From: a virus
Length of the DNA stretch: 39,882 nucleotides
Reading direction: 5' to 3' (one strand)
Virus record (IMG/VR): IMGVR_UViG_3300026479_000023
Location: 1-39,882 of that record
In this document: positions 1,597 through 6,525 of the stretch, piece by piece
How the letters are laid out: each line of letters opens with the position of its first letter
Numbering within the stretch: the first letter of the stretch is position 1
Made by a program: the position numbers and the translations under genes
The notes under the pieces: model-generated
Told to the model about the DNA's origin: nothing
The model's database searches: none
The model's input: only the letters and a program-made list of their open reading frames with translations

Positions 1597-1625
1597 TTGA
1601 CATATTGAAATCAAAATGTTATATT
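1597..1625 (+). promoter_or_regulatory. Sigma-A promoter of the solitary-repeat RNA SRU1
   Basis: TTGACA (1597-1602), a 17-bp spacer and TATATT (1620-1625) make a near-consensus housekeeping promoter. The predicted transcription start is about 1632. No rightward gene follows before the terminator at 1730-1761, so the product should be a short non-coding RNA. Confidence 0.8.
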
Positions 1626-1631
1626 TTAATC

Positions 1632-1761
1632 AATAAATACATGGTTCCCTTCGGCTAGTACACAGTGCTGGTCGTGGATTGAAACGATTATCTTTTGGGT
1701 TTGATAATGACCATGTATAAGTAGCTACAAAAAAGAGGGCTGTCGCGACAGTCCTCTTTTT
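1632..1761 (+). ncRNA. Small RNA carrying a solitary type I-C-like CRISPR repeat (SRU1), candidate RNA anti-CRISPR
   Basis: The transcript is delimited by a strong promoter and a strong terminator. Its core is a 10-bp hairpin at 1652-1674 (arms CGGCTAGTAC and GTGCTGGTCG, loop ACA, with G-U pairs). The last G is followed directly by TGGATTGAAAC (1675-1685), which equals the 11-nt 5' handle that Cas5d leaves on type I-C crRNAs. Downstream, ATTATC (1687-1692) and GATAAT (1703-1708) form a second hairpin. ATACATGGT (1637-1645) and ACCATGTAT (1710-1718) close the whole into a three-way junction. There is only one repeat and no second copy after a spacer, so this is not an array. Phage solitary repeat units that mimic CRISPR repeats are known as RNA anti-CRISPRs. 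A self-targeting or regulatory crRNA-like RNA is the main alternative. Confidence 0.72.
1730..1761. terminator. Strong bidirectional terminator shared by SRU1 RNA and the DUF1874 operon
   Basis: The stem of about 14 bp has AAAAAGAGG on one side, CCTCTTTTT on the other, one G-U pair and a CGCG loop. It lies 13 bp from the stop codon of the leftward DUF1874 gene and at the 3' end of the rightward SRU1 RNA. A and T tracts on both sides suit termination in both directions. Confidence 0.85.
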
Positions 1762-1774
1762 GTATGTATCACCT

Positions 1775-2104
1775 CTATTCCAGTCGTTTTAAGACTTGGA
1801 ACTTATATCCTATCTCTTCAATTTCTTCCACCGTCAGGATTTTGCCTTCCGGTGGACGTCCATTGAGCTTAAATACAAGCGCCGCCTGTCCAACCTCCTG
1901 TGTAAACATCTGGCGATTTACTGGGATCTCTGTCCCCAAAAGGGTTGTCATGATCTCAGCGGTTGACTGATGCCCAATTGCCGAGTCAAGATTACCAGCA
2001 TGGTCAGATACTATCCTTCTGGCATCATCCAGTGTGATGTCAATAAGTCTGTAGGCACCTGCTGTCGTTAAAATGCTCGTGTTAAGTAATGCTAATTTTC
2101 CCAT
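1775..2104 (-). CDS. DUF1874 / AcrIII-1 family protein, predicted anti-CRISPR ring nuclease
   Basis: 109 residues, the usual length of the family. The hallmarks are all present: N-terminal LLNTSILT, SAIGHQSTAE at 41-50 (His45 aligns with the catalytic His of viral ring nucleases), IPVNRQMF, the ALVFKLNGRPPEGKIL block and the EEIEEIGYKF C-terminus. The family includes YddF of Bacillus ICEBs1 and archaeal virus AcrIII-1. The latter hydrolyses cyclic tetra-adenylate, the second messenger of type III CRISPR effectors, and so blocks activation of Csx1/Csm6-type nucleases. The start is an ATG with GGGGAGG upstream, preceded by a small hairpin. It is the last gene of the leftward operon controlled by the palindromic operator at 3211-3227. 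The family assignment is very likely; activity is inferred. Confidence 0.93.
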   Translation of the reverse strand: MGKLALLNTSILTTAGAYRLIDITLDDARRIVSDHAGNLDSAIGHQSTAEIMTTLLGTEIPVNRQMFTQEVGQAALVFKLNGRPPEGKILTVEEIEEIGYKFQVLKRLE

Positions 2105-3902: not shown

Positions 3903-4211
3903 ATGAACGAAAGACACGAGAAAATGAGACGAGAAAACGGATATTTTGAGAGAGACGGCAAATTATATGTCCTGACACAGCAGGCATATCTCGACGGTTC
4001 AAATGAACATCCATATTATACTGCTGGCGCCATCTGTACCGCCGACGAGGTTGACGAAGACGGATGGCAACCGAATTATAAGGCAATTTGGGAAATCCTT
4101 GATTCTTACCGCCCGGAAGACATGCAGGAGGACTGTGCCTGCAACTGGTATGAACCAGACGAAATCGAGGAAAGTGGCGAATATAGTATCGAAGAGGATA
4201 GGTGCTGCTGA
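3903..4211 (+). CDS. Acidic hypothetical phage protein
   Basis: 102 residues, strongly acidic, especially the C-terminal third (PDEIEESGEYSIEEDRCC). The N-terminus (ENGYFERDGKLYVLTQQAYL) reads as a beta-hairpin. The start has GGGGGATATAGG upstream. The product resembles in style small phage proteins of unknown function, and acidic DNA-mimic-like composition is common among anti-restriction and anti-CRISPR proteins. That is only suggestive. A bidirectional terminator follows 10 bp after the stop. Confidence 0.75.
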   Translation: MNERHEKMRRENGYFERDGKLYVLTQQAYLDGSNEHPYYTAGAICTADEVDEDGWQPNYKAIWEILDSYRPEDMQEDCACNWYEPDEIEESGEYSIEEDRCC

Positions 4212-4221
4212 TACGCAATTC

Positions 4222-4265
4222 AAAAAGGAAAAAGGCCATACATAAAGTATAAGCCTTTTTCCTTT
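4222..4265. terminator. Bidirectional terminator between the 3903 gene and the SRU2 RNA
   Basis: AAAGGAAAAAGGC (4224-4236) and GCCTTTTTCCTTT (4253-4265) form a perfect 13-bp stem with A/T tails on both sides. It ends the rightward 3903-4211 gene and, on the minus strand, the small RNA that contains the repeat-like element at 4312-4286. Confidence 0.85.
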
Positions 4266-4330
4266 ACTAAAGCTTTAAAATAATTATTTCAATCCACATC
4301 CTCTCGGATGACAGCTAATGTATTAGCTGA
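4222..4330 (-). ncRNA. Small RNA carrying a second solitary type I-C-like CRISPR repeat (SRU2), candidate RNA anti-CRISPR
   Basis: On the minus strand, positions 4312-4286 read GTC, then CATCC-GAGA-GGATG (5-bp stem, GNRA-type tetraloop), then TGGATTGAAAT. Type I-C repeats begin with GTC, form one hairpin and end in GTGGATTGAAAT. The stem's last G is followed by exactly the 11-nt crRNA handle, so SRU2 is a 27-nt shortened version of a repeat of about 32 nt. A promoter-like TTGACT/TACTAT pair lies upstream (4363-4335) and a terminator 20 nt downstream (4265-4224). That gives an RNA of about 105 nt. An 8-bp palindrome (4312-4329) covers the predicted start. It is unrelated in stem sequence to SRU1, but identical in layout. 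Confidence 0.68.
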
Positions 4331-4334
4331 TATT

Positions 4335-4363
4335 ATAGTAGCATTTTATTTTGATAAAGTCAA
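4335..4363 (-). promoter_or_regulatory. Putative promoter of the SRU2 RNA
   Basis: On the minus strand TTGACT (4363-4358) is followed after 17 bp by TACTAT (4340-4335). A better TATAAT (4337-4332) lies at a 20-bp spacing. The palindrome CAGCTAAT-GT-ATTAGCTG (4312-4329) lies at the predicted start, as expected for an operator or a 5' hairpin. Confidence 0.5.
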
Positions 4364-5658: not shown

Positions 5659-5719
5659 TGTCAAAATATTGTCAATTAATTGTCAGTATATTGACAACCG
5701 CTTCAAAAACTGCTATTAT
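5659..5719 (+). promoter_or_regulatory. Phased TGTCA repeats and sigma-A promoter of the DUF3800 unit
   Basis: TGTCA is repeated at 5659, 5670 and 5681, exactly 11 bp apart. The last copy forms an inverted pair with the -35 box (TTGTCA, 6 bp, TGACAA). TTGACA (5691-5696), a 17-bp spacer and TATTAT (5714-5719) make a strong promoter. The phased sites probably bind a regulator on one face of the DNA. Confidence 0.72.
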
Positions 5720-5725
5720 ATACTT

Positions 5726-5821
5726 GCAGATAGAAATATGCTGTATACCCGCTCAACCGAATTAACGTTTAAGCGACATGTAATGTCGTCGGACGCGGGG
5801 CCGCCATTTGGCGGTTTTTTT
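5726..5821 (+). ncRNA. Structured RNA upstream of DUF3800 (DUF3800-associated RNA-like)
   Basis: The RNA begins after a strong promoter and ends in a terminator (CCGCC 5801-5805, GGCGG 5810-5814, T7) 17 bp before the DUF3800 start. Long-range pairing is visible: CCCGC (5748-5752) with GCGGG (5795-5799), CCGA (5757-5760) with TCGG (5789-5792), and the perfect hairpin CGACAT-GTA-ATGTCG (5774-5788). Several distinct conserved RNA motifs upstream of DUF3800 genes have been described, and this layout matches them. The order promoter, RNA, terminator, protein gene is also that of type III toxin-antitoxin systems, where the RNA inhibits the protein. Which motif class it belongs to cannot be told by eye. 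Confidence 0.7.
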
Positions 5822-5838
5822 ACTATAAGGGGAAAAAC

Positions 5839-6525
5839 ATGGATTTGTTTATATATACAGATGAATCTGGAGTCTTCGACAAAGTACATAATAGTGATTA
5901 TGTTTACGGGGGATTGATACTGTTTGGCAAAAATCAAAAAGAAGAATGTGCAAGAAAGTATTTACACGCAGAGCGTTGTATAAGATACAATCATTACTCA
6001 AAGGATGATGAATTAAAAGCCTCTTTTGTTACAAACAGAGAAAAAGGCAAATTACTACGTTCTTTAAACGCATATGTGAAATTCGGAGTAATTATAAATC
6101 AATGTAAAGTATTGGATTCAATATTTAGTGACAAAAAAACAAAACAACGCTATCTTGATTACGCTTATAAAATAGGATTAAAAAGATGTTTAGAGAACCT
6201 AATCTCCACAAGCGTTATCTCACCTGACAGTATCAACAATATGTATATATTCGCAGATGAACACTCAACAGCAACAGATGGTCGTTATGAGTTAAAAGAA
6301 ACTCTTGAGCAAGAATTCAAACGCGGAACATACAACTTTAACTGGGATAGATTTTTCCCGCCCATATTTCCGCGCATGGGAGGTATTGTTTTACATTTTT
6401 GCAATTCAGAATGTACTCCTTTAGTGCGTGCTGCTGATATTGTGGCAAACAAAATATATAATTGTTCTATTAGTGGAAATTTAAGTGATATACAACAAAA
6501 AATACATATTGTACATTTACCTTAG
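5839..6525 (+). CDS. DUF3800 domain protein
   Basis: 228 residues, the usual size of the family. The N-terminal YTDESGV, the conserved IFADEHS around residue 140, and the C-terminal PLVRAADIVANKIY are signatures of DUF3800, an RNase H-like fold with acidic active-site residues (Asp and Glu of the first motif, Asp of FADEH, Asp of AADIVAN). The family is widespread in phages and mobile elements and is suspected to be a nuclease in defence or toxin-like systems; its biochemical activity is not settled. It starts with an AGGGGA site right after the terminator of the structured RNA. The AT content is higher than in the structural genes, which suggests separate acquisition. Confidence 0.9.
   Translation: MDLFIYTDESGVFDKVHNSDYVYGGLILFGKNQKEECARKYLHAERCIRYNHYSKDDELKASFVTNREKGKLLRSLNAYVKFGVIINQCKVLDSIFSDKKTKQRYLDYAYKIGLKRCLENLISTSVISPDSINNMYIFADEHSTATDGRYELKETLEQEFKRGTYNFNWDRFFPPIFPRMGGIVLHFCNSECTPLVRAADIVANKIYNCSISGNLSDIQQKIHIVHLP

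Follow-up and report, generated by a model that had tools for sequence, protein, structure and literature searches.

Why should a phage carry a lone CRISPR repeat in a transcription unit of its own, beside the gene for a viral ring nuclease? An earlier note on this DNA, made from the letters alone, had placed a solitary type I-C-like repeat at 1597–1761 in its own small RNA, here SRU1, and had proposed it as a candidate RNA anti-CRISPR. We have analysed SRU1 together with a second unit of the same phage, SRU2, within the whole 39,882-bp stretch of DNA (the window), and have compared both with real type I-C repeats and with similar cassettes in other viral contigs.

Architecture of SRU1 and SRU2

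The features of the two units and of the neighbouring anti-CRISPR gene are as follows.

1597–1625, plus strand: SRU1 promoter, TTGACA-17-TATATT with TG ahead of the −10 (extended −10), 11/12 consensus matches
1652–1674, plus strand: SRU1 hairpin, CGGCTAGTAC-ACA-GTGCTGGTCG, 10 contiguous pairs of which 3 are G-U, with a C-G closing pair
1675–1685, plus strand: SRU1 type I-C handle, TGGATTGAAAC, an exact match
1686–1729, plus strand: SRU1 pseudo-spacer, forming a second hairpin and the outer helix
1730–1761, both strands: terminator common to SRU1 (plus) and the AcrIII-1 gene (minus)
1775–2104, minus strand: AcrIII-1 viral ring nuclease gene (PF08960/DUF1874, E 7e-30), convergent with SRU1
4335–4363, minus strand: SRU2 promoter, TTGACT-17-TACTAT with TG ahead of the −10, 9/12 matches (moderate)
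4286–4312, minus strand: SRU2, comprising GT, a 5-bp hairpin and TGGATTGAAAT
4224–4266: strong terminator downstream of SRU2, also convergent with the plus-strand gene at 3903–4211

Most of what the earlier note had described at SRU1 was confirmed: the near-consensus promoter, the 10-bp hairpin whose last G directly abuts the handle, the exact 11-nt type I-C handle, the strong terminator and the AcrIII-1-type gene some 90 bp away, the stop codon of which lies 89 bp from the handle (<1 kb). The terminator arms are 16 nt each and 94% complementary, and T-runs are present on either strand, so that it can also end the convergent acr gene. The AcrIII-1 protein retains the SAIGH active-site motif, the histidine of which is invariant in the family alignment. 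The outer helix, given previously as 9 bp, is present but extends to 10 bp in the best fold; folding of 1626–1761 yields −47.2 kcal/mol (z −6.06), much of it contributed by the terminator. From the promoter we infer a transcription start at about 1632, and Cas5d would be predicted to cut between 1674 and 1675 to leave a downstream piece that begins UGGAUUGAAAC.

The claim that only one repeat is present holds locally but not for the phage as a whole. SRU2 lies 2.6 kb from SRU1 and neither unit has a second repeat within 100 bp. Reading 4312–4286 on the minus strand, GTCATCCGAGAGGATG continues directly into the handle TGGATTGAAAT, and SRU2 has the 5' GT, the C-G-closed stem and the TGGATTGAAAY handle, all three features of a type I-C repeat. 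Judged by sequence, SRU2 is the more canonical type I-C unit of the two; SRU1 has TT at the position of the 5' GT. SRU2 is 2.2 kb from the AcrIII-1 gene but converges with the gene at 3903–4211 on a common terminator, just as SRU1 and AcrIII-1 do. Both units are intergenic with a promoter no more than 250 bp upstream, and both are short, bracketed by promoter and terminator, and built of a C-G-closed hairpin followed by the 11-nt handle, which is the invariant core of real type I-C repeats.

Relation to type I-C repeats and to cassettes of other viruses

Across both strands of the window 0.06 TGGATTGAAAY handles are expected by chance, and two were found. For a handle flush with a stem the expectation falls to 0.003 (stem of at least 5 bp) and 5e-5 (at least 10 bp). 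Type I-C systems with this handle, which the earlier note had proposed to look for in related hosts, do occur: among 295 genomes from the Defluviitalea order, a plausible host group of the phage, 21 contain such arrays. A covariance model was built from 21 real type I-C repeats, mostly from arrays of this order, in which the 5' GTC and the closing C-G pair are invariant and the stem shows clear compensatory changes. When the window was scanned with this model, the best match was SRU2 (28.5 bits, E 3e-5), followed by SRU1 (17.7 bits, E 0.024), with noise from the third match onwards (E 2 and above). SRU2 aligns with the model end to end with a shortened stem, and SRU1 through the handle plus GTC only; the SRU1 stem is unlike every type I-C repeat gathered for comparison. 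SRU1 matches no Rfam family and has no match among INPHARED phages or PLSDB plasmids. The published criterion for a solitary repeat unit is an identity to a known CRISPR repeat of at least 90%, across at least 90% of its length (PMC10651486); an identity search would probably miss SRU1 owing to its unrelated stem.

A search for the SRU1 cassette in other viruses, also proposed in the earlier note, recovered homologues in only two contigs, both 100% identical to SRU1, but did reveal comparable solitary units. A first scan for promoter plus handle gave 126 sites, mostly chance matches and many of them coding starts, and a stricter pattern (−10, GTC and handle) with a scrambled-handle control was therefore adopted for the viral contigs. 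This gave 106 distinct sites among the loci examined. A flush stem of 4 bp or longer is present at 25 of them, and at 1 of the 75 sites that matched the scrambled handle; true arrays account for at least three of the 25 genuine-handle sites (L286, L307 and L335). Many of the other sites are solitary units with promoter, repeat and terminator, independent of each other, for example those in L021/L112, L026, L068, L073 and L115, and the L073 unit is also found in a Defluviitalea-order genome. Cassettes similar to SRU1 and SRU2 thus recur in unrelated viral contigs. Stems of the units from other viruses show compensatory changes, though stem pairing had partly guided the choice of these sites, which were moreover fitted to the model. 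Transcription of most of these cassettes should start near the repeat and hence leave almost no leader.

Other arrangements were noted in the same material. Two phage contigs (L005, 1550–1660; L108, 7480–7590) carry tandem degenerate I-C-like repeat pairs with differing stems, near-identical handles and a terminator on their 3' side. L005 is itself an AcrIII-1 phage (protein 75% identical), and another contig with the same isolate number contains an I-C array. In L286 (1–560) a type I-C array passes into prophage sequence; the final repeat of the array has only half a stem, which would suit integration of the phage within or beside the array. Attempts to assign a host by portal homology (58–64% over the full length, 69% over a fragment) fix no host, and TGGATTGAAA sites near or inside the relatives' prophages were rejected as chance matches in coding sequence.

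Proposed mechanism and rival readings

Solitary repeats that act as RNA anti-CRISPRs are already known, type I-C included (PMC10651486). With moderate confidence, we read SRU1 and SRU2 as candidate RNA anti-CRISPRs (Racr) against type I-C systems, because the exact handles with flush stems exceed chance, the covariance model ranks SRU2 and SRU1 first and second, and comparable units, one of them also paired with AcrIII-1 (L138, below), recur in other viruses. The earlier proposal is therefore retained as the best reading of a lone I-C-like repeat in its own unit, with the reservation that the SRU1 stem resembles none of the gathered repeats. Two further observations count against it: most AcrIII-1 relatives have no adjacent unit, and in G025, the Cas5d-bearing genome with the nearest portal relative, an I-C-type array near the Cas5d gene (L244, 1933–2904) has the handle TGAGTAGAAAT instead of TGGATTGAAAT.

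In type I-C systems cleavage of the repeat by Cas5d gives the crRNA its 11-nt 5' handle, and one Cas5d remains on the 3' hairpin afterwards (PMC5965380). As far as the sequence can tell, the phage probably uses decoy RNAs to jam the host CRISPR defence. Host Cas5d would bind the SRU1 or SRU2 hairpin and cut 3' of its final G; one Cas5d would stay with the short 5' piece. The 3' piece, with a correct UGGAUUGAAAY handle and a non-targeting, partly folded tail, would capture a second Cas5d and perhaps Cas7/Cas8c in dead-end complexes, which would starve real crRNAs of Cas proteins; in SRU1, the 10-bp outer helix could keep both cut halves together. AcrIII-1 would act independently, against type III systems, by breaking down their cA4 signal.

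The closest known counterpart comes from a Bifidobacterium prophage: RacrIC1, an RNA anti-CRISPR against type I-C (PMC10651486). It is a transcribed solitary I-C repeat and, like the I-C-like SRU1, lies beside an acr gene on a phage genome. RacrIC1 lies 11 nt downstream of AcrIC5 within one bicistronic RNA (PMC10651486), whereas SRU1 has its own promoter and faces AcrIII-1, and the SRU1 stem is longer than and unrelated to that of RacrIC1. RacrIF1 is likewise a repeat mimic, and it is cut by the crRNA-processing enzyme of the host, as we infer for SRU1 and SRU2. It acts via an upstream product of 70–76 nt bearing a Cas7 filament (PMC10651486), but the leader predicted for SRU1 and SRU2 is only about 20 nt, so the more likely route is that the downstream piece with its handle does the trapping, or that Cas5d itself is trapped. 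Both units share the closing C-G pair and 11-nt handle with type I-C CRISPR repeats, SRU2 also retaining the 5' GT, and differ from type I-C arrays in having neither a second repeat nor a spacer array; their stems are 10 bp (SRU1) and 5 bp (SRU2), compared with at least 7 bp in host type I-C repeats. The crRNA-like autorepressor RNAs of cas operons also have a single repeat and their own promoter, but their place is beside cas genes, the promoter of which they match in part, and no such match was found for SRU1 or SRU2. A candidate autorepressor RNA was seen in G059 (L508, contig C46, 1–296), where a solitary I-C-like repeat RNA lies divergent from a cas5-like gene; 10 of the first 11 nt of its guide (mismatch at position 6) match a site with a TTT PAM just upstream of that gene.

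The attachment-site, guide-RNA and chance readings are weaker than the RNA anti-CRISPR reading. A coincidental handle, on an otherwise unrelated structured small RNA or antisense RNA, could apply to SRU1 only, and would suit its atypical stem, a folding that reaches well past the repeat and the absence of an Rfam family; the joint chance of 5e-5 in the window and an independent SRU2 in the same phage argue that this is unlikely. The earlier note had itself raised a crRNA-like guide, in which the host I-C complex would load the processed SRU RNA and the pseudo-spacer would target a rival phage or repress a promoter, for instance that of the cas operon. A unit of this type seems to be present beside the cas5-like gene of G059, but no protospacer for either SRU1 or SRU2 was found in the window or the loci examined, and 20 nt of SRU1 searched in the viral contigs returned identical copies only. 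Since the SRU1 pseudo-spacer is moreover folded, and a comparable unit of a Pullulanibacillus camelliae prophage (L138, below) has no notable match in the cas locus of its host, we regard a guide function as quite unlikely.

Degenerate tandem pairs in other phages (L005, L108) would be in keeping with a decayed remnant of a phage-borne mini-array of no present function, yet promoter, terminator, closing pair and handle are intact in both units, though the stems differ, and we consider decay improbable. Very improbable is a DNA element, the repeat being the attachment site for phage integration into a host CRISPR array. An integrase gene fragment does lie at 22–657 of the window, and an I-C array borders a prophage in another isolate. 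However, a 24-nt direct repeat pair (647–670 and 845–868) lies directly 3' of the integrase gene, 0.8 kb from SRU1, and these are likely the arm sites of attP; SRU1 is not placed as an attP core would be, flanked by arm repeats and adjoining the integrase gene, and two units each with promoter and terminator fit an att core poorly.

Pairing with AcrIII-1 in a second phage

A locus of the same layout is found in the P. camelliae prophage (L138), where the I-C-like hairpin CTCGCCTCCTGAGGGCGAG is followed by TGGTTTGAAAC. An AcrIII-1 gene is encoded 83 bp away on the other strand, and unit and gene converge as SRU1 and its acr gene do; TTGACA-17-TATTCT stands upstream of the unit, and a terminator common to unit and acr gene lies between them. 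The host genome contains a type I-C cas operon and many arrays, and the regions concerned are as follows.

G004 contig C14, 15609–43116, and L484, 6219–8631: P. camelliae prophage and split host cas3

In the I-C arrays of this host, six spacers are perfect matches to the contig of the resident prophage; a TTC PAM accompanies five of them, and a shuffled-spacer control gave zero matches on that contig. Such self-matching spacers alongside the prophage are as expected if the prophage blocks the I-C system. However, P. camelliae cas3 is split over two overlapping frames, so the host may tolerate self-matching spacers without any inhibitor, and this alone could explain the coexistence.

Two different phages show the convergent acrIII-1/SRU pairing, which suggests that two CRISPR types may be countered from a single locus; when adjacency was checked across relatives, most AcrIII-1 relatives had no repeat unit nearby. 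Likely new are the unrelated stem of SRU1, its co-occurrence with a second unit in the same phage, and the recurrence of the acrIII-1/SRU arrangement. We put forward, as a tentative and rather doubtful generalisation, that type I-C RNA anti-CRISPRs may need only the closing C-G pair and the handle and not the host repeat sequence, that identity-based searches would thus overlook a class, and that in some phages such an RNA and AcrIII-1 may form a joint module against types I-C and III. If SRU1 works, repeat mimicry would be independent of sequence identity to the host repeat, published counts would leave such RNAs out, and one could test directly what minimal RNA signal suffices to trap Cas5d.

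Elsewhere in the window, a DUF3800-I RNA (RF02969, 96 bits) lies at 5719–5825 on the plus strand, directly upstream of a DUF3800 gene at 5839–6525 on the same strand.
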